From Thermoguttaceae bacterium (GTDB lineage Bacteria > Planctomycetota > Planctomycetia > Pirellulales > Thermoguttaceae), in assembly GCA_017407125.1 (NCBI GenBank), contig JAFQXE010000024.1, positions 1-64,000 on the forward strand: 64,000 nucleotides of DNA, read 5' to 3'. This document shows, in pieces, positions 47,594-62,210 of the stretch (position 1 is its first letter; each line of letters opens with the position of its first letter). The notes under the pieces were generated by a model. That model saw only the letters and a program-made list of their open reading frames with translations. It was not told the DNA's origin and did no database searches. The translations under genes and the position numbers were made by a program.

Positions 47594-50500
47594 CTAATTT
47601 CTGCGTTTACGCCAGTACATCAGCCCAGCAACGCCAAGAACTAACAGCGCCCACGTTGACGGTTCCGGAACGGCGTTGGAGTCCAACGTTGCGTAAACTG
47701 TGTCGCCCTCAACTTTCAGGTTCCAAAAATATGCATCGTCTTCCGATAAAAGACCGTTCCAGAAATCATCTGTAGCCAAAGCGCCATCAAAATTACGGGA
47801 AACAAATTCGTCATTTTCGTTATACGCTCCCTGGACAAGAATCGGATACGTCGCACCAGGCTGAACCGACGAGAAGGACAGATCGAGAACGGATTTTTCA
47901 TCAATGGTAAACGTATCGGCGGTAAGCTTGTCCATGCCGGTGGCGTCCTGTTCAATGAGCAATGTTGCGTCTTCTTTGAGAATGTATCCGCCGCCGAAAG
48001 TCGCCTCTCCAACGGAATTGCCCGGCGAGAAAACAGTATCGGGGTTAACCGTAATGCCGCCGGTCATATAGCCTTTGAAATCGAGATTTCCTGAGGAAAC
48101 GACCAGGCTTTGAGCGTCGACTTTCCCGTTGGCGCCGGTATAGATTTGCAGCGTTCCATCGCCTTGCTTTTCGATCTGTTTGCCAGTTGCAAAAATCGAC
48201 CCGATGAACTTGGACAATTGGCTGTTAGTAAGCGTCAAATCATGAGCAGACGCGTCCAGCGCGGCAACAACGTTTCCATCGTCGTCCAAGCTTCCGCCGG
48301 AAAGATTGAACAGTTCCCCGCCATTGGACAGAACCAGAGTTCCCGACTCAATCGTAGTCGAGCCGGTATATTCAGGAGCTTTATCTAAAGTCTGCGTTCC
48401 AGTTCCAGTGATAACCAGAGCAATGTTGCCTTTAACGGAACTCTTGAATGTCAAATTCTTACCCGTTGTGTCAATCGTTAATGATGACAACGATTCTGTA
48501 TTATTATAAATTGGACCTTTATCGGCATCGCTATAAAGACCTTTGAAGGTCTGGCTGTAACCGTTCATATCCAGCGTACCGTAAACGTCTGCTTGACCGA
48601 CGTTCAATCCAAAGGCGTTATTCCTTCCCAGCCTAACTCTGCCTTGTAAAGCTCCTTGGGAAGCATTGTCATAAAAAATTCGGATCTTTCCTGTAACGTC
48701 ACATGTTGTATCCATGACAATCCAGGCGTCATTTTCATTATTCCCAAATCTCAAATCGCCGGAACCGGATATAGATCCTGAAAATGTCGTATCGACAGTG
48801 TTCTTCAGCGTCAGATTGTTTGCCCCGTAGTTGACAGTTCCCGCGCCGGAAAGATCGTTCAGCTTACCGCCAGCAGACAAAGCCAGCGTTCCCGATTCAA
48901 CCGTTGTCGCGCCGGTATATTCAGGCGCTTTGCTTAACGTCTGCGTTCCAGTTCCAGTTATATCCAAAGCAATGTTGCCTTTAATAGAACTCTGGAACGT
49001 CAAATTCTTTCCCGTTGTATCAATCGTTAATGTTGACAGCGTTGTTGAATTATTATAAATTGAACCTTTATCGCCGTTGTTATACAGACCGTTGAATCTT
49101 TGGCTGTACCCGTTCATATCCAATGTTCCATAAATGTTCGCCTGACCGGCATTGGCGCCAAAGGGCTGAGCAGAGCCAAGCTGCAATCTGCCTTGATTGG
49201 ATTCCGAACCATAGTTAATCTGAACGCCGCCAGTAAATGAATTGCCGTTACAAGTTGTCGCCATTGTCATTACTGCGTTTTTATTATTCGAGGGAAAAAC
49301 TACAGTTCCAGAACCGTACAGAGATCCTGAAAACGTCGTACTGGCAGAATTGCTCAAAGTCAGAGTATTACTTCCAAATTTGACAGTTCCCGCGCCGGAA
49401 AGGTTGTACAGCGTACCGCCAGCGTCCAACTGAAGCGTACCAGCTTGAACAGTCGTCGAACCTGTATAAGCTGGAGCCTGTTTCAAAATCTGAGTTCCTG
49501 TGCCGTCGCCAGTTAAAACCAGACTCAGCGCGCCTTCAAATACGCCTCCATAAACCTTACTGGCATTGTTATTAAGCTTTAAAGTCAAAACAGAAGAGCT
49601 TGTACCTCCAACTGTACCAGCAGTAGTACTGTCGCGGTTAGCCAATCCAGCAAACGTTTGGCTGTACCCATTCATATCTAAAGTACCCCAAATCCTTGCT
49701 TCGCCAGCATTGGTTCCAAACGGATTGTTCGCGCCCAATCTCAGCAATCCATACGAACCGCTTTCATTGTCTGTATGTATAGAGCCTGTAAATGAATTAT
49801 CTGTGCAGGTGGTTGCTGCAACCACCCATCCAGAATCGACTTTTACATGGAATTTTCCAGAACCGGTAATAGAGCCGGTTAGCGTCATATTTTCAGACCA
49901 ACCGGACTTAAAATAGGATTCTGCAGTCAGGTTTAGCGGAGCGCTGACAGTAACCGTTCTTCCATCGGTTGCGTTGCGTAAAGTTCCTCCGCTGAGCGTA
50001 ATTCCTTTGTCGAAGCTGAAATTTGATTCAGCTCGCAATTCACCGCCAGAACTAACGGTAATAGAGCCGTTACCCGTCCAAGCGCCCTTGACAGTTACAG
50101 ATTCAGAGTTGATATTGATATTGCCATCTACACGAACAGTCCCTCCATTAGATATAATCCTGGCGCCAGCTCCAAGCGTAATTTGGTTATTGGCAGTTCC
50201 CAAAGCCAGAGTTCCAGATTTGGAGGTCATTACAACATTGGATATATCGCCATTGAGAACCTGCGTACCTGCGCCGACGTAATCAAAGACTTTTTTACCC
50301 ATGTTAATTGTTCCATTATACGTAAAGGTTTGGTCTGACGTTACGCCATTGCCGACAGAAATGCCTTTTCCGCTGGACTGAGTATCGATCATCTGAGCGC
50401 CGGCGTCTCCTAGTAAACCTCCGACTTTCATTTGAGTTCCGTCCCACAAGTTTACGATACCGGTTGACCCGATTTTAAGCGCAGCTTTATTGTCAGTCCA

Positions 50501-52219
50501 ATTTTGAGACGTATAACCGCCATTCATGAAATAGCCGTTTTTAACGTAAATCGTGGAATTCTTATCCATGCTGATTGTTATAGTAGATCCATTTCCGTTT
50601 GATACGGCAACGTGTCCGCCGCCGTCAATAAGCAGCGTTCCGCCGGTTCCGTTAATTGTAACGCCGGCGTTATCTGCTCCTGAGCAAATCGCATTATTTT
50701 GGTTATGAACGACATCCGTTGTTCTATCGTTATAAAATTCCAGCGTACCGCCGTTGACGTTAAATGTCAGCGCAGAAGAATTTTGTGGCGTTGTATTGTA
50801 ATACGTCAACGTTGAACCGGACGGCACGTCAATCTCTGAAGACGCCAATTTCCCGCTGCCGCTGAGCTTCAGCGTTCCGCCGGAAACGGTCGTTTTGCCG
50901 GTGAACGTGGTGTTGGCGGTGGTGAGCTCAAGCGTTCCCGCGCCGGTTTTGGTCAAACCGCCAGCTCCGGAAATTGTAAACGAAGACAACGTTTTAGAAA
51001 CGCCTTGACCAGCGTTCAGTTCCAACGATCCGGTTGAACCAGCGCTGCCAAGGTTCACTGTTCCGGTAAGAGAATCAATATAATCCATATTCGCCGTCAG
51101 CTTGCCTCCGTTGGAAACCGTAACGTTCTGAAGTTGATAAACATTGGTTGAATCGTTTGCTCGTCCAGCAATTGTAACCTGGGCTTTATTAATTACCGTT
51201 TGAACGTTTGTTTTTTCGACATAAATGCCGCCGTCAAAAGAATAGGTTCCGCTGTCGGTAAAGCTTAACACTGTACCGGAAGAGCCGTATAAATACAGGT
51301 CGTTACCATTTGCGGCTGTATTTCCTGTAAATACGGCAGACGTGTTATTGCCAGAAAATACAACTGAATTCGCGCTATAAATCGCGCCGCCATATTCTCC
51401 CGCTGTGTTGCCGCTGAATTCGATTGTTGGATTGTCGCCCTGACCGGTGATCGCCAGCGTTCCTCCATAACTATAGATGGCGCCGCCATGATTGGCGTTG
51501 GCAGTATTATTGGTGAATTTGACGACGTTGCCAGTAATTGTGGTTTCTGCGCCGTGGATCGCGCCGCCATACGTTTTAGCGTAGTTGTTGTTAAACTCGA
51601 TTTTGCCAGTTCCAGATCCAGTTATGGTTAGAGCTCCGGCGTTGTCCATCGCTATTACTCCGCCAGAGTAACCGCTATTTTTAAAACCGGAAAATGTGAC
51701 GTTGTCCACTGTCAAGTTAACTGTAGTGGAAGACGTACTACTGTGAAAGAAAAGACCAATCGCGTCTGAAATCTCGCTGTCAGAACCCTGAATGGACAAA
51801 TCTTTGAGCGTCATTGAGGCATTTGTTCCGCTGGTTGTGTTAAAGTTGTAAAAACGATCGGAGCCTGCGGTTTTCTTTATTGTTCGCATTGTGCCAGGCG
51901 TATCAGACTGAATTGTAAAGTTCAAATACGCGCCGTTGTTACTTTCGAGATTCAATCTTCCATTTTGCGTGGCGTCGCCCGAAAGCTTAAGCACGTCGCC
52001 TAATGCGGCGCCTTCTGTCTTTTGAACCGTAGTGATGTCTGTGCCAGAAGCGTTAGACTCCGTCGCACCGTCGGCATACCGAAATACCGTATCTGGCTCG
52101 GTGTCTTGAGCATAGGTAAAGACAGTAAGAACAAAAACTGACAGAACAGAAATGAGAATCCGCCCGCATGTTAAAATGCGGGGGGAGGACAGAATAATCG
52201 GTTTCCGAGAATTAGTCAT
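47594..52219 (-). CDS. Giant PEP-CTERM surface protein with Pmp-like and beta-strand repeats
   Basis: The 1541-residue protein has a signal sequence (about 15-37, VFVLTVFTYAQ). Residues about 170-310 carry Chlamydia Pmp-type repeats: GGVI, then GGAIHGAETTITGN, GGAIYSYGG and GGAIYSANSVVFSGN with FTNN/FSGN words. Then come autotransporter-type beta-strand repeats, including about 130-residue units with IYGTLDMNGYSQ...TTVESGTLxLSxGG occurring about three times. The end is VPEPSTWALLVLGVAGLMYWRKRRN, a PEP-CTERM tail for exosortase sorting. A long beta-helical surface fibre or adhesin is inferred. It shares promoter and module content with the next gene, so the pair arose by duplication. Confidence 0.85.
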   Translation of the reverse strand: MTNSRKPIILSSPRILTCGRILISVLSVFVLTVFTYAQDTEPDTVFRYADGATESNASGTDITTVQKTEGAALGDVLKLSGDATQNGRLNLESNNGAYLNFTIQSDTPGTMRTIKKTAGSDRFYNFNTTSGTNASMTLKDLSIQGSDSEISDAIGLFFHSSTSSTTVNLTVDNVTFSGFKNSGYSGGVIAMDNAGALTITGSGTGKIEFNNNYAKTYGGAIHGAETTITGNVVKFTNNTANANHGGAIYSYGGTLAITGQGDNPTIEFSGNTAGEYGGAIYSANSVVFSGNNTSAVFTGNTAANGNDLYLYGSSGTVLSFTDSGTYSFDGGIYVEKTNVQTVINKAQVTIAGRANDSTNVYQLQNVTVSNGGKLTANMDYIDSLTGTVNLGSAGSTGSLELNAGQGVSKTLSSFTISGAGGLTKTGAGTLELTTANTTFTGKTTVSGGTLKLSGSGKLASSEIDVPSGSTLTYYNTTPQNSSALTFNVNGGTLEFYNDRTTDVVHNQNNAICSGADNAGVTINGTGGTLLIDGGGHVAVSNGNGSTITISMDKNSTIYVKNGYFMNGGYTSQNWTDNKAALKIGSTGIVNLWDGTQMKVGGLLGDAGAQMIDTQSSGKGISVGNGVTSDQTFTYNGTINMGKKVFDYVGAGTQVLNGDISNVVMTSKSGTLALGTANNQITLGAGARIISNGGTVRVDGNININSESVTVKGAWTGNGSITVSSGGELRAESNFSFDKGITLSGGTLRNATDGRTVTVSAPLNLTAESYFKSGWSENMTLTGSITGSGKFHVKVDSGWVVAATTCTDNSFTGSIHTDNESGSYGLLRLGANNPFGTNAGEARIWGTLDMNGYSQTFAGLANRDSTTAGTVGGTSSSVLTLKLNNNASKVYGGVFEGALSLVLTGDGTGTQILKQAPAYTGSTTVQAGTLQLDAGGTLYNLSGAGTVKFGSNTLTLSNSASTTFSGSLYGSGTVVFPSNNKNAVMTMATTCNGNSFTGGVQINYGSESNQGRLQLGSAQPFGANAGQANIYGTLDMNGYSQRFNGLYNNGDKGSIYNNSTTLSTLTIDTTGKNLTFQSSIKGNIALDITGTGTQTLSKAPEYTGATTVESGTLALSAGGKLNDLSGAGTVNYGANNLTLKNTVDTTFSGSISGSGDLRFGNNENDAWIVMDTTCDVTGKIRIFYDNASQGALQGRVRLGRNNAFGLNVGQADVYGTLDMNGYSQTFKGLYSDADKGPIYNNTESLSSLTIDTTGKNLTFKSSVKGNIALVITGTGTQTLDKAPEYTGSTTIESGTLVLSNGGELFNLSGGSLDDDGNVVAALDASAHDLTLTNSQLSKFIGSIFATGKQIEKQGDGTLQIYTGANGKVDAQSLVVSSGNLDFKGYMTGGITVNPDTVFSPGNSVGEATFGGGYILKEDATLLIEQDATGMDKLTADTFTIDEKSVLDLSFSSVQPGATYPILVQGAYNENDEFVSRNFDGALATDDFWNGLLSEDDAYFWNLKVEGDTVYATLDSNAVPEPSTWALLVLGVAGLMYWRKRRN

Positions 52220-52478
52220 AATTCTTCTATGTATTGGTTAAAAATTGGGAAATTGGGTTTGATAAACAATCGGTATGTATATACTTTGACGCAATTATCA
52301 AAAATATGTTCCTAAATATATATTATACACGCGAATTTTGATTCTGCAAGGAAATAGGAGAAAAAATTTTAAAATATTGCGGCAAGACAGAGAAGATAGG
52401 CAATTTTATTAAGAAAACCGTAGGAATAGAGCAGGGGGAGGGAGAAAAAACGCCGTTCAGCCCGGTTCGCGAGCGTGT
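52220..52478. repeat. Duplicated promoter/leader region, copy 1
   Basis: About 260 bp match 55562-55818 in order, from the AGAAGAATTATG start area through the promoter to AAACGCCGTTCAGCCCGGTT. The two copies differ by scattered changes and small indels. Confidence 0.85.
52322..52349 (-). promoter_or_regulatory. Promoter of the 1541-residue PEP-CTERM gene
   Basis: On the minus strand, TTGCAG (52349-52344), 16-nt spacer, TATAAT (52327-52322) preceded by GTG; leader of about 100 nt. Confidence 0.65.
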
Positions 52479-52482
52479 GGCG

Positions 52483-52610
52483 GGCGCTGAAGAAATTTTA
52501 GCCGCAAAGAACGCAAAGAGCGCAAAGAAATTTTTAAAACTTCGCGAACATTGCAAACTTCGCGTGAGCCTTTTCCGGGGGCTTACGCACCCCGGCTCGC
52601 CTACGCTTTG
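52483..52610 (+). repeat. CGCAAAG module with CCGGGG/CCCCGG hairpin, copy 1
   Basis: GCTGAAGAAATTTTAGCC, then CGCAAAGAACGCAAAGAGCG, CTTCGCGAACATTGC, CGCGTGAGCC, and CCGGGG-GCTTACGCAC-CCCGG. Minus-oriented relatives lie at 61104-61186 and 61990-62135. After it, 52612-52646 stutters AATTACGAATTCCGCATTAC into the PEP-CTERM stop. Confidence 0.75.
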
Positions 52611-52636
52611 CGTAATTACGAATTCCGCATTACGAA

Positions 52637-55561
52637 TTACGCATTCTTACGTTTCCGCCAGTACATCAAACCCGCAGCGCCAAGCGCCAACAGCGCCCAG
52701 GTCGACGGTTCCGGAACGGCGTTGGCGCTAAGCGTCCCAGAAAGCAAAATATTTTTTCCATCGAGCTTAACTTCATAGCCAGGAAAGTAATAAGAGAAAG
52801 TCGCGTTCTTGACAGCGTCAAAAATGCTCGCTGCATCGGCATCGCTTGTAGTGGTGATGAATACAAAGTCCGTGAACGAATCTCCGCCAACGAGTCCGCT
52901 GTCGGGATCCAGGACTATGTTGATAATCGACCCGGAGGCAAACGTCTCTTCATTGATTTCGCTGAGAATCAGCTGGTCAACGACAATCTCGCCTTGATCG
53001 TTTTTGCCGACTTCCATCAACAGCGTCGCGCCGCTATCCAGACTAAACGTTCCGTCAACCGTCAGCGTTCCGACCGAGTTGCCGGGGGACAGAGTCGCGC
53101 CAGCTTCGACTGCCAGCGATCCTTTGAAATACTCTTTCATATCCAGACGACCGGACGAAACAACGAAGCTGGAAGCCTCGACCAGTCCTGCCGCAGCAGT
53201 GCAAATCTGAAGCGTTCCGTCGCCGGTCTTAACGACTTGACCTGTACTCTTAATCTTATTATTTGAATCACCTGTTTCGAAAATGGTCAGCAATTGCTTC
53301 TTGCCGCTGGAAAGATTGTATTCCAGCGTTCCGTTTGCTCCAACGGTAATCGGACCGTTTGCGACAACGGCGTCGTCGGTCAGTTCGAGAACGCCGTCTG
53401 AAACGGTTGTTGCGCCAGTGTACGTGTTAGCGCCGGAGAGCGTCAGCGTTTTCGTTCCGCTTTTAGTCAAACCGCCAGCTCCTGCAATTACGCCTGCGAA
53501 TTCAGTATCAGCGCTGCTTTCTACAGTAATAGCTTTACCGTTGTTGTTGAGAACGCCAGCGTTCGTACCGGACAGATTGTACAGCGTACCGCCATTGGAC
53601 AGAACCAGCGTTCCCGAATTAACCGTTGTTGACGCAGCGGCAGGAGCCTGGATAAAAGTTTGAGTTCCCGTTCCGGTTAAAACGAGGGCGACATTTCCAG
53701 TAATAACGCCATAGTAAGTATTATCTTGTGAAGTCGTATCCAACGTTAGCGTTGATAAAGTTTCAGTATTGTTATAGATATTGCCTTTTAGGTATCCGCT
53801 ACCGTTGTCGCTCTTTAATCCCTTGAATTTTTGGCTGTAACCGTTCATATCCATCGTTCCGTAAATGTTGGCTGTACCGGCGTTGGCGCCAAACGGCTGA
53901 AGAGAGCCAAGTTTCAAATAACCTTGATTAGTAGTCGAACCAAAGTTGGTCTGAACGTTTCCTGTAAACGAATCGCCGATACAAGTTGTCGCCATTGTCA
54001 TCACATAGCCATTAGTATTACTAGCAACAACTACAGTTCCAGAACCGGACAGCGATCCTGAAAATGTCGAATTGACAGAGTTGCTCAAAGTCAGAGTTTT
54101 ACTTCCAAATTTGATAGTTCCATCCGTGCCGGAAAGATTGTTTAAAGTACCGTTATTGAGCAGTTCCAGCGTTCCCGAATTAACCGTTGTTGACGCAGCG
54201 GCAGGAGCCTGATGAAACTTCTGCGTTCCATTTTCTCCGCTTATAACGAGATCTATTTTTTGGGCAATAGTTCCGTAGTAGGTATACGTTCCGTTTGTTA
54301 TATCCAGCGTCAAAGTTGAAACGCTGCTGCTTGCGTTATTAAAGATACTTCCTTTATAAACAGTAGTCTTACCATCTTTCCCAGTATCGCTCACCAATCC
54401 TTTAAATATTTGGCTGTAACCGTTCATGTCCAACTGACCGTAGATGTTCGCCTGACCGACATTTGCCCCAAAGGGCTGATCGCTACCCAGACGCATCTTT
54501 CCCATACTTGATGTTTTATCCCAGTTTGTTGTAACGTTTCCTGTGAATGAATTGCCAGGAGAAGACGTTCCCATTATAACCCAGCCGCCGTCGGAAGGAA
54601 CTATGAGAGCGCCAGAACCCTTAATCTTTCCGGTAACGGTCATATCCTTACCCCAGCCAGCCTGAAGATACGAATTAGAAACAAAATTCAAATCGTTTGA
54701 AAAAGTGAGATATGCGTCATAATTATGAACAGTGCCGCCATTGAACGTGATTTCTTTTGAACCGATATAGGAAGTTGCGCTTGCCGGCGCTTCCGAAGTT
54801 CCAATATTTTTGTTTTCTTCTCCAATACGTATCTTCCCCTTGAGTGTGATTGAACCTTTATAGTCGCCAGTACCTGAAATATTAATCCAGTTCCCCGGAT
54901 TACTGGCATCTTTATTAAATGTTAAATTGCCGGAACCGTTAAGCCCGCCGGAGAGCGTTAATGAGCCATTTTTCCAACCGCATTGGACCTGGCTGTCTGC
55001 CGTAACGGTAATGGGGCAGGAAACCGTTCCATCTTTTGTTCCGCCGTGGTTTGTATCGCCGTCGTTAAAAAGCAAACCGCCAGCGAGAGTTATTCCGTTT
55101 GCAAGACCGATCGTTCCTCCAACTCTCAATTGAGTTCCGCTATTAACCGTGATCTTTCCAGTTCCCGTCTTCCAATTTCCTGATGCATAAAGATGACCGG
55201 AAGTCACAAAGATATTGCCATCAACTTTAATTGTTCCGCCGCTAGTTTTAATATTGGTTCCCGATCCAATGTTAATTGAATCTCCTGACGTTCCCAAAAC
55301 CAAGGTTCCAGCGTTGGACGTGATAGTAGCTGCGGTAATGCTGTTTGTCAGCGTCAGCGTTCCAGCGCCGGTTTTGGTAATAGTCCCGCCGGTAATAGTT
55401 CCGGTATAAGTTGCAGAGTTTGTAATGGCAAACTCTGTGTTCGTATTTATATTGGATGGGGCAGAAGGAACTGTATCATCTGTATACGTTTCCGCCTGAG
55501 CGAAAGAGCCGACGAACAAGAGCGCCAGAAGCGACAAACGCAGTTTCGGAGAATTGGTCAT
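52637..55561 (-). CDS. PEP-CTERM surface protein with beta-strand repeats
   Basis: From ATG 55561 the protein has 974 residues: a signal peptide (MTNSPKLRLSLLALLFVGSFAQA), then autotransporter-type beta-strand repeats such as LTKSGTKTLTLSGANTYTGATTVSDGVLEL (near 680), and units with ANIYGQLDMNGYSQIFKGL repeated three times. Its late module GDGTLQICTAAAGLVEASSFVV...LSPGNSVGTLTVDGTF matches the other two PEP-CTERM proteins. The end is VPEPSTWALLALGAAGLMYWRKRKNA. It lacks the Pmp-like GGAI block of its neighbour. Residues before this Met in the open frame have no coding support. It is the upstream member of a tandem pair, each with its own copy of the promoter. Confidence 0.85.
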   Translation of the reverse strand: MTNSPKLRLSLLALLFVGSFAQAETYTDDTVPSAPSNINTNTEFAITNSATYTGTITGGTITKTGAGTLTLTNSITAATITSNAGTLVLGTSGDSINIGSGTNIKTSGGTIKVDGNIFVTSGHLYASGNWKTGTGKITVNSGTQLRVGGTIGLANGITLAGGLLFNDGDTNHGGTKDGTVSCPITVTADSQVQCGWKNGSLTLSGGLNGSGNLTFNKDASNPGNWINISGTGDYKGSITLKGKIRIGEENKNIGTSEAPASATSYIGSKEITFNGGTVHNYDAYLTFSNDLNFVSNSYLQAGWGKDMTVTGKIKGSGALIVPSDGGWVIMGTSSPGNSFTGNVTTNWDKTSSMGKMRLGSDQPFGANVGQANIYGQLDMNGYSQIFKGLVSDTGKDGKTTVYKGSIFNNASSSVSTLTLDITNGTYTYYGTIAQKIDLVISGENGTQKFHQAPAAASTTVNSGTLELLNNGTLNNLSGTDGTIKFGSKTLTLSNSVNSTFSGSLSGSGTVVVASNTNGYVMTMATTCIGDSFTGNVQTNFGSTTNQGYLKLGSLQPFGANAGTANIYGTMDMNGYSQKFKGLKSDNGSGYLKGNIYNNTETLSTLTLDTTSQDNTYYGVITGNVALVLTGTGTQTFIQAPAAASTTVNSGTLVLSNGGTLYNLSGTNAGVLNNNGKAITVESSADTEFAGVIAGAGGLTKSGTKTLTLSGANTYTGATTVSDGVLELTDDAVVANGPITVGANGTLEYNLSSGKKQLLTIFETGDSNNKIKSTGQVVKTGDGTLQICTAAAGLVEASSFVVSSGRLDMKEYFKGSLAVEAGATLSPGNSVGTLTVDGTFSLDSGATLLMEVGKNDQGEIVVDQLILSEINEETFASGSIINIVLDPDSGLVGGDSFTDFVFITTTSDADAASIFDAVKNATFSYYFPGYEVKLDGKNILLSGTLSANAVPEPSTWALLALGAAGLMYWRKRKNA

Positions 55562-55818
55562 AATTCTTCTCTGTATGGGTAATAATTGGGGAATTTGGTT
55601 TAATGAACAAATGGTATGTATATATTTTGATACAGTTACCAAAAATACACTTCTAAATTTACATTATACACGTGATTTTTGATTCTGCAAGCAGTTTAGA
55701 GGAAAATATTTAAAATATTATGGAAAATAGATAGGATAGAGAAGACAATTAAGAAAACAAGAGGGATAGAGCAGGGGGCGGGGGAGATAAAACGCCGTTC
55801 AGCCCGGTTCGCGGGAGT
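55562..55818. repeat. Duplicated promoter/leader region, copy 2
   Basis: Partner of 52220-52478; after AAAACGCCGTTCAGCCCGGTT the similarity ends and an ACGAAA hairpin takes over, whereas copy 1 continues into the CGCAAAG module. The gap 55562-56046 contains this, the hairpin and an AATCCG module, and no gene. Confidence 0.85.
55663..55690 (-). promoter_or_regulatory. Promoter of the 974-residue PEP-CTERM gene
   Basis: On the minus strand, TTGCAG (55690-55685), 16-nt spacer, TATAAT (55668-55663) preceded by GTG, identical in layout to the neighbour's promoter. Confidence 0.65.
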
Positions 55819-58320: not shown

Positions 58321-58500
58321 TTTAGTTAGGAATTAGGAGTGAGGAGGGAGGAGTTGAGGAAATTATCAATTAGCAATGAGCAATTAGCAATTGACGAATA
58401 GGCGAGCCGGGAACGTGAGTTCCCGGGCTTACCGTTCCAAACGTCTCTTTTTTACTCATTGGTTATCGGTCGTATACCCACGGGTTAACACCCGTGGCTC
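58321..58500. repeat. Stutters and CCACGGGT hairpin upstream of the HIRAN gene
   Basis: 58324-58357 repeats TTAGGAATTAGGAGTGAGG; 58362-58394 repeats TTAGCAATGAGCAATTAGC; GGGAACG-TGA-GTTCCCGG is near 58409; CCACGGGT-TAAC-ACCCGTGG is at 58478-58497. The gap 58188-58627 holds no gene. Confidence 0.65.
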
Positions 58501-58542
58501 GCCTGGGGGTTTGAGACCTTCCCAAGCAACCATTTTTGAACA

Positions 58543-58565
58543 GGTATGACAGATTCTGTCATACC
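58543..58565. promoter_or_regulatory. Perfect palindromic operator before the HIRAN-WYL genes
   Basis: GGTATGACAG (58543-58552) and its exact complement (58556-58565) flank ATT. It ends 4 bp before the -35 box of the HIRAN gene. WYL-family regulators often autoregulate through such palindromes, so this is the likely target of the WYL protein encoded by the second gene. Confidence 0.65.
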
Positions 58566-58569
58566 TCCA

Positions 58570-58597
58570 TTGAATCGGTTGAAATCTTAACTATAAT
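58570..58597 (+). promoter_or_regulatory. Promoter for the HIRAN-WYL unit
   Basis: TTGAAT (58570-58575), 16-nt spacer, perfect TATAAT (58592-58597), about 30 nt before the ATG, with GAGGG as ribosome-binding site. Confidence 0.65.
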
Positions 58598-58627
58598 ATA
58601 GGTAACTAAATCATAGAGGGAAAAATC

Positions 58628-59860
58628 ATGACGGAAAACCGAACTGCTTCTGACGATCAATTTAACGGTCCGGAAACGCTCTACGCGCACTTTCAGGACA
58701 GAATCTACGCTTTACAGAATAGCGTCGTTGACCTGCTGTATACAAAACGCGATTTAATCTATTACGATAAACCGGGGTTGACGGGCTGTTTTTATTCCAG
58801 TTTGTTTCGTTACGAAAAGAAGCTCAAGCTGCTTTCCGCAAAAATCGAAAAGTACAAGTTTGAAATCAAGCAAATACAAGCCATTCTCAACGGTCAGGAC
58901 AAATCGTTAAAAGACGTCAAACAGGAAAGCAAGAGTCAGTTCGCCGCCGTTAAAAAAGAGCTGAAAGAATGGGAAAGGCAGCTGAAAAAGACTATCAAAA
59001 CTGGAAGCGACTATACGTTTAAACTATCAAAGAAAAAAAAGAATCGGCTCGACAACCTTTACAATTGGATTAAAACCGAACCAACCGTAATCGGCAACAA
59101 GGAAAACAACATTCGTAAACTGCTGGTTACTTCAAGCTTCTATTATTATAACAATAATTACCAGGGCTTGAAAGAAACAGCGCAATACGTCTACGAGTGC
59201 AATCTCAACTGGTACAAGCCGGTAGTCACAGCGGCAGAAATACGCCAATTGACTACAGCGTGTCAGGCGGCGCGTGACAAGCTTCAGCTTCAAATTGATC
59301 AGATTCAAAGTCAATTCCCCTTTTCGAGAAAAGACGAGCTGAGTCATGAAGACGAACAGGAACGCTGCGCTAAAGAATTGAGAGAAAAGATTCTCAAAGC
59401 CCATAAAGACGTCCTTGAATGGCGGCAGAAGCGTAACGAATTCATTGCGCTCTATCGGCTCTCAAAGCGAAACTCCTTGCCTAGCGTATTCAAAAAGCGA
59501 GAGGAAATTATTCCTCATCGCTCTTTCGAATCGTCTGTGCGATTGATGAACACAAACGTAGCGGGGACGACTCACGTTCCGGACATCGTCTCCCTTGCAG
59601 GGCGGCTTAAGCCCGGCGATCGGCTTTACCTGCTTCGAGAACCGAACAACAAATACGATTCCAACGCCATTTTGGTTTTGAATAATAAAGAACAAAAGCT
59701 GGGATACATTCCCAAAGCCAACAACCCCGTACTGGCAAAAATGATGGACCAAGGACTGCAGCTGTACGCAGACGCCGATACGATAGAGCAAAACGGCTCG
59801 TGGGTCAAAATCGTCGTCAACGTCTATATGTACAACTCCCTTTTTGAAAGCCGCGGCTGA
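58628..59860 (+). CDS. Coiled-coil protein with C-terminal HIRAN domain
   Basis: The 410-residue cytoplasmic protein has a long helical, Lys/Glu-rich N-terminal part (about 1-290, several coiled-coil stretches such as LKLLSAKIEKYKFEIKQIQA) that I do not recognise. The C-terminal HIRAN domain spans about 305-400: VAGTTHVPDIVSLAGRLKPG, LYLLREPNNKYDSNAILVLN and KLGYIPKANNPVLA. HIRAN binds DNA 3' ends or single strands and occurs in eukaryotic HLTF/Rad5 helicases and in bacterial defence or repair proteins. No helicase or nuclease part is visible here, so this may be a DNA-damage or foreign-DNA sensor. It shares a promoter with the WYL regulator 52 bp downstream. Confidence 0.75.
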   Translation: MTENRTASDDQFNGPETLYAHFQDRIYALQNSVVDLLYTKRDLIYYDKPGLTGCFYSSLFRYEKKLKLLSAKIEKYKFEIKQIQAILNGQDKSLKDVKQESKSQFAAVKKELKEWERQLKKTIKTGSDYTFKLSKKKKNRLDNLYNWIKTEPTVIGNKENNIRKLLVTSSFYYYNNNYQGLKETAQYVYECNLNWYKPVVTAAEIRQLTTACQAARDKLQLQIDQIQSQFPFSRKDELSHEDEQERCAKELREKILKAHKDVLEWRQKRNEFIALYRLSKRNSLPSVFKKREEIIPHRSFESSVRLMNTNVAGTTHVPDIVSLAGRLKPGDRLYLLREPNNKYDSNAILVLNNKEQKLGYIPKANNPVLAKMMDQGLQLYADADTIEQNGSWVKIVVNVYMYNSLFESRG

Positions 59861-59912
59861 CGCCCGACGTTTTCCATTTCATGATTTAACCTCCTGACAT
59901 CCCTGAAAATCA

Positions 59913-60938
59913 ATGAACGAAACCACTTCCAAAACCCGGCAATGGGAACTATTGAAAATTCTCACTTCCAACGATCCCAAACATAAAAACGGATACGCTA
60001 TCGACGAGCTGTCAAAGAGAATGGGCGTTTCCCCACGAACCATTCAGCGCGACTTGAGCGTCATGAGCGACATCTTAAAAACGGGAAAGATCGTCCTAGA
60101 ATGCCGCCCCGTTCCCGGTACCGGAAAGCAGCTGTGGAAAATCGATTTTCTCTCGGGAGAGAGCACCGTCAACCTCCGTTACGACGAGGCGATCGCGCTG
60201 TGCATCGGATACCAGTTCCTGCAGCCGCTTATCGGAACGCCGATTTGGAAGTCCGCCAGCGCCGGAATTAAAAAGATTCGCTCTCAGCTGGGCAAAGACG
60301 TCATTGACAAATTCGACGCCATGGCGAAGTCGGCGTTTATTACTCACGTCGGCAGCAGCAATTACCAGTCAAACGAATACACGTCCATTTTGGACGACAT
60401 TTACTCTGCCATGGAATCGCAGTGCAGCGTCGTAATCAAGTACCGGTCACAGGAATCGACCAGGGCGGAATCCTATTCCATTGACCCGTACCACATCATG
60501 CTGCACAAGGGGTCGATATACATCATCGGCTATTCTCACAAAGTCAACGCCATGCGGCATTGGAAGCTCAACAGAGTGGAGCAGACGGAACTGCTTTACA
60601 ACGTCAAATTCAACAAAGACCCCAGTTTCAATATCGGGAAATACATGTCCGGGTCGTTCGGCGTGATTCATTTCCCGACGGAAAAGTTGCAAAAAGTAAA
60701 AATCCGGTTTGACGAATCCGTCGCCCGATACGTCAGCGAACACGTCTGGTCGAACTCGCAGAAGATAACGTCACAGCCGGACGGCTCCGTCGTTCTGGAC
60801 ATGCAGCTCAACAACACCGTAGAAGTCAAAAACTGGATTATGAGTTTCGGCTCTCATGCAGAAGTGTTAAAACCCGCCTTCCTCCGAGACGAAATCGTCG
60901 CCGACCTGCAAGCCGCGCTAAAGAAATACGAGCAGTAA
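59913..60938 (+). CDS. WYL-domain transcriptional regulator
   Basis: The 341-residue protein has an N-terminal winged helix of the HTH_11 type (ELSKRMGVSPRTIQRDLSVMSDI, about 27-50) and a WYL domain (about 165-235: VVIKYRSQESTRAESYSIDPYHIMLHKGSIYIIGYSH...RHWKLNRVEQTELL), then a WCX-type C-terminal extension. WYL proteins sense ligands such as nucleic acids or cyclic nucleotides and control phage-defence, DNA-damage and mobile-element genes (BrxR, CapW). It follows the HIRAN gene by 52 bp, and a perfect palindrome lies in front of the shared promoter, so autoregulation and control of HIRAN are inferred. Confidence 0.85.
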   Translation: MNETTSKTRQWELLKILTSNDPKHKNGYAIDELSKRMGVSPRTIQRDLSVMSDILKTGKIVLECRPVPGTGKQLWKIDFLSGESTVNLRYDEAIALCIGYQFLQPLIGTPIWKSASAGIKKIRSQLGKDVIDKFDAMAKSAFITHVGSSNYQSNEYTSILDDIYSAMESQCSVVIKYRSQESTRAESYSIDPYHIMLHKGSIYIIGYSHKVNAMRHWKLNRVEQTELLYNVKFNKDPSFNIGKYMSGSFGVIHFPTEKLQKVKIRFDESVARYVSEHVWSNSQKITSQPDGSVVLDMQLNNTVEVKNWIMSFGSHAEVLKPAFLRDEIVADLQAALKKYEQ

Positions 60939-60960: not shown

Positions 60961-61186
60961 GATGAAAGGCGGTAATGGAGCGACCAACGGGAGCGGAATT
61001 ACGCATTCGCCGTCAGGCGAACAAAACGCCGGAATTAAGATGTCACATTGATTTCGCGCTTAGGCGAGCCGCGGGTGTAAACCCGTGGGCGTGAACGAAT
61101 CCCCGGAAAAAACTCACGCGGAGCCGCGGAGGAGCGGAGAATGTTCGCGAAGTTTTAAAGATTTCTTTGCGCTCTTTGCGGCTTAA
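60961..61186. repeat. Composite of GGCGGTAATGGAG, CCACGGGT and CGCAAAG modules
   Basis: 60963-61022 matches 11447-11510; 61062-61095 matches the hairpin at 58478 in reverse; 61104-61186 is a minus-oriented CGCAAAG module (CCCCGGAAAAAACTCACGCG, TTCGCGAAGTTTTAAAG, TTTGCGCTCTTTGCGGC), whose end runs to the stop of the next gene. Three families are joined in one gap. Confidence 0.75.
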
Positions 61187-61980
61187 AAATCGTTCTCCGT
61201 CTTGTCGTCGTCGAAACTCTCTTGCTGTTCCGGCGAATCGGGCGGCGGGGCTTGCTGTTCGTTTCTTATTTTCGTCAGACGTTCCTTTCTTCTGGCTTTT
61301 TGACGTCTATAAACGCGAAGCCGCCGAATCTGATACGCGCCAAGTCGACGTATTAGCACGTAAAAGAACGCAACAAAGAACCCGAAGAGTAATAATTGAT
61401 TCAACGCAAATAACAGCATAGCTACGCCAATTCCTCCCCAGCCGCTTTGTCCGCTGCTGTCATGAACAGTAACAGCAGGTTCGCGATGAGGGAGTATGGC
61501 TTGCGCGCAGTATTGGAGAAAATTCGGCAACAGAAAAAACACTGCAAAAAACAGAATTATCAATATTCCCAATAAGACAAAGTATAGGAGTATTTGTATA
61601 ATCTCGCCGAAAAAACTGTCCTGAAAACCTTTACAAAAAAGACCGAACTCCGATTCTCTGTGTTTGCTCTGCGACTTTGAAAAACGAATGTTACGCTCTT
61701 TCTCTTGTTGTACGTTATCATGAATTTTAATTCCAATCAAGATTACGGGAATCAAAACTAAACTGACGCCAAGAGATAACAAATAAACAGAAAGCGGAAA
61801 ATCCATGAAGAAATCTTTCAGCAGAAGATCAACCCACTTGCTAAAAAGGACTTGATAAAAAAACACAATGCATACAACCAGCGGCAAAAGAAACGTGTAT
61901 AACGTCATAAACCGCTTCCAAACAGATTGTCTGTTGTCGTTGACGTTCTTGGCAATTGGTTTGTTATCTTCGTTTTTCAT
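61183..61980 (-). CDS. Four-helix membrane protein of unknown function
   Basis: I do not recognise this 265-residue protein (ATG 61980). It has four transmembrane helices (about 22-45, 58-81, 127-155 and 185-213) and a basic cytoplasmic tail rich in Arg (RRLRVYRRQKARRKERL) followed by an acidic, Gln/Pro-rich end. The third and fourth helices are connected by a short loop containing HDSSGQSGWGG. The extra N-terminal residues upstream in the frame (SFFRGLTHPGS) come from the CGCAAAG repeat. No operon partner is clear. Confidence 0.6.
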   Translation of the reverse strand: MKNEDNKPIAKNVNDNRQSVWKRFMTLYTFLLPLVVCIVFFYQVLFSKWVDLLLKDFFMDFPLSVYLLSLGVSLVLIPVILIGIKIHDNVQQEKERNIRFSKSQSKHRESEFGLFCKGFQDSFFGEIIQILLYFVLLGILIILFFAVFFLLPNFLQYCAQAILPHREPAVTVHDSSGQSGWGGIGVAMLLFALNQLLLFGFFVAFFYVLIRRLGAYQIRRLRVYRRQKARRKERLTKIRNEQQAPPPDSPEQQESFDDDKTENDF

Positions 61981-61989
61981 ATAAAAAGA

Positions 61990-62210
61990 TGAACCGGGGT
62001 GCGTAAGTCCCCGAAAAAAACTCACGCTCTAGTTCGCAATGTACGCGAAGTTTTAAAGATTTCTTTGTGTTCTTTGTGTTCTTTGTGTTCTTTGTGGTAA
62101 AATTTCTTCAGCGGGCGAGATGCCCGCGAACCGGGCTCAACAAAGTCTGTTCGCGGGTCGTTTTTCCATTGGCAGGCGAGGACGCCTGCGGTCGACGAGG
62201 ACGTCGACCC
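61990..62210. repeat. CGCAAAG module copy 3 and a chain of perfect hairpins
   Basis: ACCGGGGTGCGTAAGTCC starts a minus-oriented CGCAAAG module with a 9-bp tandem repeat TTCTTTGTG (four copies, 62060-62095). Then GCGGGC-GAGAT-GCCCGC (62111-62127), GCAGGCG-AGGA-CGCCTGC (62172-62189 region) and GGTCGACG-AGGA-CGTCGACC (62190-62209), the last two with the same AGGA loop and no spacer. 62230-62275 is an AATTCCGAATTCC stutter. Confidence 0.75.

Follow-up and report, generated by a model that had tools for sequence, protein, structure and literature searches.

Palindromic operators shared by a CC-HIRAN-WYL operon, CRISPR-Cas and ZacABC loci suggest a defence regulon under a DriD-like WYL protein in Thermoguttaceae

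The window, a stretch of 64,000 nucleotides from a Thermoguttaceae bacterium, contains an operon for a coiled-coil/HIRAN protein (CC-HIRAN) and a WYL transcription factor which is led by a palindromic operator. The same operator precedes a type I-C CRISPR-Cas operon, a ZacABC operon and further genes scattered across the genome. We consider it probable that these genes, including the CC-HIRAN-WYL operon itself, form a scattered defence regulon under a DriD-like WYL activator which probably senses single-stranded DNA (ssDNA). The DNA and its translations directly show the operon, the geometry of operator and promoter, a closed set of sites, the identities of the targets, the limitation to WYL-bearing genomes and the DriD-like character of protein and site.

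The operator (58542..58566, no strand assigned) is a perfect palindrome of 25 bp, AGGTATGACAGATTCTGTCATACCT, with 12-bp arms around a single T or, equally, 11-bp arms around ATT. It had no match in 100 dinucleotide shuffles with up to 3 mismatches allowed. Its 23-bp core (58543-58565) belongs to a set of 22 homologous sites in the genus. The core is followed after 4 bp by the -35 hexamer TTGAAT (58570..58575, plus strand) and, after a spacer of 16 bp, by the -10 hexamer TATAAT (58592..58597, plus strand). This sigma70-like pair is the top promoter-like match of the region (10/12). Downstream are a ribosome-binding-like GAGGG and an ATG at 58628. An earlier note on this DNA had described a 23-bp palindrome 4 bp before the -35 box; this is correct, except that the perfect symmetry is slightly longer. 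Ahead of the operator, at 58395-58505, the intergenic DNA carries repeat-like inverted elements, GGCGAGCCGGGAACGTGAGTTCCCGGGC ... CCCACGGGTTAACACCCGTGGCTCGCC, which recur beside genes elsewhere in the genus (e.g., L031 upstream of the operator, and L121) and are possibly a REP/MITE-like family.

The first gene of the operon (58628..59860, plus strand) encodes a protein of 410 aa with a C-terminal HIRAN domain (PF08797, aa 307-400; E 2.9e-18, 65.9 bits against a Pfam cut-off of 24.7). HIRAN domains bind DNA ends. The predicted model of the protein matches the HIRAN domain of HLTF. The approximately 290 aa N-terminal to HIRAN are helix and coiled coil with a degenerate J-domain-like segment; this part had no match in the fold search. 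The PADLOC candidate PDC-M03B matches with 3e-12, a likeness confined to the HIRAN part (the names PDC-M03 and ZacABC are taken from PADLOC models only). The gap to the ORF of the WYL protein (59913..60938, plus strand; 341 aa) is 52 bp and no plus-strand terminator was called in it; co-transcription is therefore plausible. Thus ORFs, domains and promoter bear out the earlier claim that both genes lie behind one promoter. Beyond the operon a convergent gene for a membrane protein which matches no known family (61183-62025, minus strand) has a downstream counterpart in the species G002 (L031:5624-6475). Upstream, at 47594-55642, two very large minus-strand ORFs of 1541 and 1001 aa possess autotransporter-like repeats and PEP-CTERM sorting signals (VPEPSTWALL..GLMYWRKR).

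The earlier note had proposed to look for the pair and its palindrome in other genomes, and they occur together in 4/4 species of the genus. The sister species G001 has a full-length CC-HIRAN of 71% identity. In G001 an ankyrin-repeat gene is divergent and immediately upstream of the operator of the CC-HIRAN-WYL operon (L030:2935-4368, minus strand), and ankyrin genes recur near operators of the palindrome family. At the same position, G002 and G003 have two overlapping genes, one for a CC/J protein and one for a separate HIRAN protein, followed by the WYL gene. Their CC proteins keep the HPD motif together with a DnaJ match below threshold; the window protein has lost the HPD motif of J-domain proteins. 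The window protein is thus a fused form with a decayed J-like segment. Among the other genera of the family, HIRAN genes have no WYL neighbour within approximately 1.5 kb except in G035, where a diverged row of palindrome (GGTTGGCCGGAATCTGTCCAACC), HIRAN gene (Pfam 6.4e-14) and WYL gene forms an independent case.

All genomes were searched with the pattern GGTNNGACA-N5-TGTCATACC-N4-TTG-N19-TANNNT. It is present at 8 sites on 6 contigs of the own genome (G000) and at 5, 3 and 6 sites in the sister species G001, G002 and G003, i.e., 22 in the genus, and at none in 111 other genomes of family and order. This rules out a private operator of the two genes. The backward control pattern had no match in the genus and one in an unrelated genome; a loosened palindrome brought no further sites. 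The genomes are incomplete MAGs, the own one 87% complete with 3.4% contamination, and the same sites recur in four MAGs. The 22 sites yield the motif GGTAyGACAGnnyCTGTCrTACC. Positions left free by the pattern are conserved as well, i.e., C14 and the inner A of TATAAT, each in 22/22. In every operator-bearing genome (4/4) the WYL gene sits in an operator-led operon.

Searched without the promoter pattern, the palindrome has ten sites in the own genome, 8/10 with exact promoter spacing, and the exact operator core is found at three further places there (control zero). The site C37:6897 is inside an ORF and was taken as chance. A second palindrome on C50 (13765), upstream of a GH31 gene in G000, and one on C55 of G003 have nonstandard promoter geometry and were not counted in the regulon. 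A weaker palindrome, GGTACGACAGCGCCTGTTAAACC, is conserved in two species (L117:9766-9788, L120:469-491) and lacks the standard promoter spacing; its copy in G000 precedes a GH31 gene. Viral contigs contained no exact operator and no WYL relative; consequently, there is no support for phage decoys or for copies carried by phages.

Which genes stand behind the operator? Type I-C CRISPR-Cas operons do so in G000 (C50), G001 (C130) and G003 (C166), in the order Cas3c (model match 1e-192), Cas5c, Cas8c, then Cas7 and, by ORF reading, Cas4, Cas1 and Cas2; the label type I-C is based on the Cas3c/5c/7c/8c models. The operons of G001 and G003 are followed by repeat arrays. ZacABC operons are positioned likewise (G000 C35, G001 C216, G003 C198), with ZacA (DUF6361, 9e-67), ZacB (PLD-like, 2e-101) and ZacC (helicase, 8e-71). 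At these loci in G000 and G001 the same gap also holds the separate, near-consensus promoter of a divergent UvrD helicase gene. In the own genome, three promoters out of eight lead to ankyrin genes, two on C30 (C30a, C30b), with one operator each, and one at C15a. Another leads to a Cys-rich protein of 81-82 aa (G000 C23, G001 C51, G003 C246), in G003 followed by the gene of a 612-aa ankyrin protein. In G003 a VWA protein (C164) and small unknown proteins (C233) also lie behind the operator. No gene is evident downstream of G002 C321 and of empty C15-type sites, G000 C15b among them.

The defence role, a guess in the earlier note, is now backed by evidence, since CRISPR-Cas I-C and ZacABC operons lie downstream of the same operator. 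The same note had taken the pair for a self-contained sensor and effector that works without nuclease or helicase. The pair exists, but it appears to belong to a genome-wide regulon in which nucleases and helicases are present (Cas3, ZacC). DNA-end binding by HIRAN domains would suit a regulon which is mainly a DNA-damage or stress response, as in Caulobacter DriD, and of which the defence genes are only a part; a role in defence is unproven for several targets (ankyrin, Cys-rich). DriD regulates didA, bapE, recJ and dnaG (PMC12340889). Yet no recognised gene of repair, replication or cell division is among the eight targets in the own genome, the two targets with the clearest identity are defence operons, and gene content differs between species as in defence loci. 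We regard a predominant damage response as rather unlikely and prefer a defence regulon.

The WYL protein has the DriD-type layout, a single chain of about 330 aa with wHTH, three-helix bundle, WYL and WCX. Pfam reports WCX (4.7e-20) and WYL (7e-15), with HTH matches under the Pfam cut-offs; the three-helix bundle is predicted at helices 90-144, between wHTH and WYL. With a family profile, the best solved relatives are DriD (1e-25, full length) and PafBC (1e-24), and BrxR and CapW are absent from the PDB sequence matches at 1e-3. Foldseek ranks DriD first (1e-18; BrxR/CapW 4e-7) with a predicted model of moderate confidence (pLDDT 73.5) and low global TM-scores. The protein shares with BrxR/CapW an HTH-WYL-WCX architecture and a palindromic operator in its own promoter. 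Nevertheless, a close kinship to these repressors, as suggested earlier, is not supported: profile and fold place the protein much nearer to DriD and PafBC and the site is upstream of -35, not over -10, which rules out BrxR/CapW as closest family. We call the protein DriD-like and not a DriD ortholog because the operator ends 4 bp upstream of the -35 box rather than overlapping it.

The site points in the same direction as the protein. The operator core TAyGAC-N7-GTCrTA agrees with TACGAC-N7-GTCGTA of DriD, the consensus site of which is ATACGAC-N7-GTCGTAT, and operator variants at G000 C50 and G001 C26 contain the exact TACGACAG as does the DriD oligonucleotide (PMC12340889). WYL homologues of other genera (about 33-38% identity) have the frame GGT-NN-GAC-N7-GTC-NN-ACC near their own genes, at 7 sites with at most 1 mismatch (26 loci; 0.3 in shuffles), and these palindromes mostly have TG/CA where the operator of the genus has AT/AT. 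Away from the WYL gene, a perfect GGTTGGAC-N7-GTCCAACC palindrome is conserved at a second locus in G026 and G075, of another genus (L151:7039, L152:6963).

Operon linkage, related palindromes across genera, a DriD-like protein and a DriD-like site make this WYL protein the likely binder of the operator. Binding cannot be demonstrated from sequence alone, and a different, unlinked protein might bind the palindrome with the WYL gene merely one of its targets. But the palindrome family tracks the WYL family across genera, the DriD site matches, and contig C6 carries the sole further WYL homologue that the genome yielded, a much more diverged one (24% identity); we deem an unlinked binder very unlikely. 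The best explanation as a whole, which we think probably correct, is that the WYL protein acts as a homodimer, in the manner of DriD, and activates from the 22-site motif to which it binds.

Does the protein activate or repress? The operator ends 4 bp upstream of -35 at 22/22 promoters. The -35 boxes agree with TTGACA at a mean of 3.9/6 positions, and the spacers of all 22 sites are 16 bp. A fixed distance from operator to -10 at several non-optimal promoters is a feature of DriD, which activates such promoters through the RNA polymerase alpha-CTD and other contacts. A/T tracts are found just upstream of the operator at 22/22 sites (mean 69% AT against 50% in the window); this is weak evidence because intergenic DNA is generally AT-richer. 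Operators upstream of weak -35 boxes make activation more likely than repression. The contact with RNA polymerase must then differ from that of DriD since the DriD site overlaps -35 and the operator here is just upstream.

The same regulon and binder could also be conceived with the WYL protein as a repressor, released by a nucleic-acid ligand. This is the logic of the defence-associated BrxR and CapW, which repress via palindromes (PMC9122601, PMC9122588), and the operon here would resemble their systems in being autoregulated. Their sites, however, overlap or follow the -10 box, whereas 22/22 sites here are upstream of weak -35 boxes, and sequence and fold are nearer to the activators DriD and PafBC. 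Repression thus seems unlikely to us, and we retain activation. The trigger is probably ssDNA, by analogy to DriD, PafBC and SiwR.

The controlling elements are constant and the controlled genes change. Between G000 and G001 the WYL protein and the flanking hisC and SDR proteins are 97-99% identical, CC-HIRAN only 71%. For CC-HIRAN, dN is 0.15-0.16 and dS 0.43-0.45; for the WYL body and the flanking genes, dN is 0.005-0.009 and dS 0.13-0.19. Because dN and dS of CC-HIRAN are both raised, we find allele exchange a likelier cause than positive selection by itself. The cas3-cas5-cas8-cas7 half in G003 differs from that of G000 and G001, with operator-promoter and cas4-cas1 nearly identical. In the C35 slot UvrD/ZacABC, HsdM/UvrD and HsdR/ZacABC alternate. 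The C15 slot of G000 holds an ankyrin gene flanked on either side by a direct repeat (about 120 bp) which contains the operator-promoter; elsewhere it holds a VWA gene (G003) or is empty (G001, G002).

That repeat could suggest that palindrome and promoter are a repeated mobile element which landed before genes and carries no regulatory signal. However, between target classes only palindrome, -35/-10 and spacing are kept, with spacers, leaders and outer flanks unrelated; a mobile repeat is therefore hardly credible. Exchange of defence genes behind a fixed regulatory operator is a reasonable reading. A bolder proposal, which we offer tentatively and with some doubt, is that the operator-promoters are standing slots, i.e., WYL protein and operator stay fixed and defence genes are swapped by recombination at operators. 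A captured gene would then join a phage-induced regulon at once, a plug-in immune system with one master switch.

Binding by the WYL protein, its activating effect, ssDNA as the ligand and the role of HIRAN are the inferred parts of the mechanism. The WYL domain would load ssDNA, i.e., phage DNA or DNA damaged by phage or nucleases. From the palindrome, the loaded dimer would bring RNA polymerase to about eight promoters which are scattered over the genome and weak by themselves. The output would be CRISPR-Cas I-C, ZacABC, ankyrin-repeat proteins, the small Cys-rich protein and the CC-HIRAN operon of the WYL protein itself, autoregulation of which would establish positive feedback. The HIRAN protein, a predicted binder of DNA ends or ssDNA, would most likely have an accessory part at DNA ends, as sensor or effector.

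To our knowledge, each of the WYL regulators known from phage defence controls only the locus beside it. In the present genome a single WYL protein with its operator appears to unite CRISPR-Cas I-C, ZacABC and several uncharacterised genes, which is unusual compared to control of a single neighbour. The coordination of many defence systems in bacteria is largely an open question. If our view is true, the operator is a tool, the genes behind it (ankyrin, Cys-rich, CC-HIRAN) are candidate defence genes, and the system bears on whether a general DNA-distress signal switches on adaptive immunity.

Among known systems, DriD of Caulobacter crescentus, a WYL activator of the SOS-independent DNA damage response, is the best solved relative. 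It shares the domain layout, the half-sites TACGAC/GTCGTA with a 7-bp gap, and several promoters with a fixed -10 distance and poor -35 boxes. It differs in that identity is about 20% and its operator is over -35; the targets here include phage-defence operons in place of damage-response genes, the WYL gene here shares its operon with a HIRAN gene, and binding of ssDNA is here a prediction. PafBC and SiwR of mycobacteria are likewise WYL activators, triggered by ssDNA, and PafBC is close by profile. However, PafBC is a heterodimer, SiwR binds the -26 region, and their targets are the DNA damage response or DinB-like genes (PMC10693628, PMC11804915). BrxR and CapW, the WYL repressors of BREX and CBASS, resemble the present protein as HTH-WYL-WCX regulators of defence loci with a palindromic operator and an autoregulated operon. 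They are more distant in sequence, fold and site position, and each controls its adjacent system, whereas here unlinked loci have a common operator. Sll7009 of Synechocystis is also a WYL protein over CRISPR-Cas (I-D) but is a repressor of one locus (cited in PMC9122601). Finally, the Gac/Rsm defence regulon of Pseudomonas similarly coordinates many defence functions by one system, yet does so by two-component/sRNA post-transcriptional control and not by a DNA-binding WYL protein with a common operator (PMC11888443).
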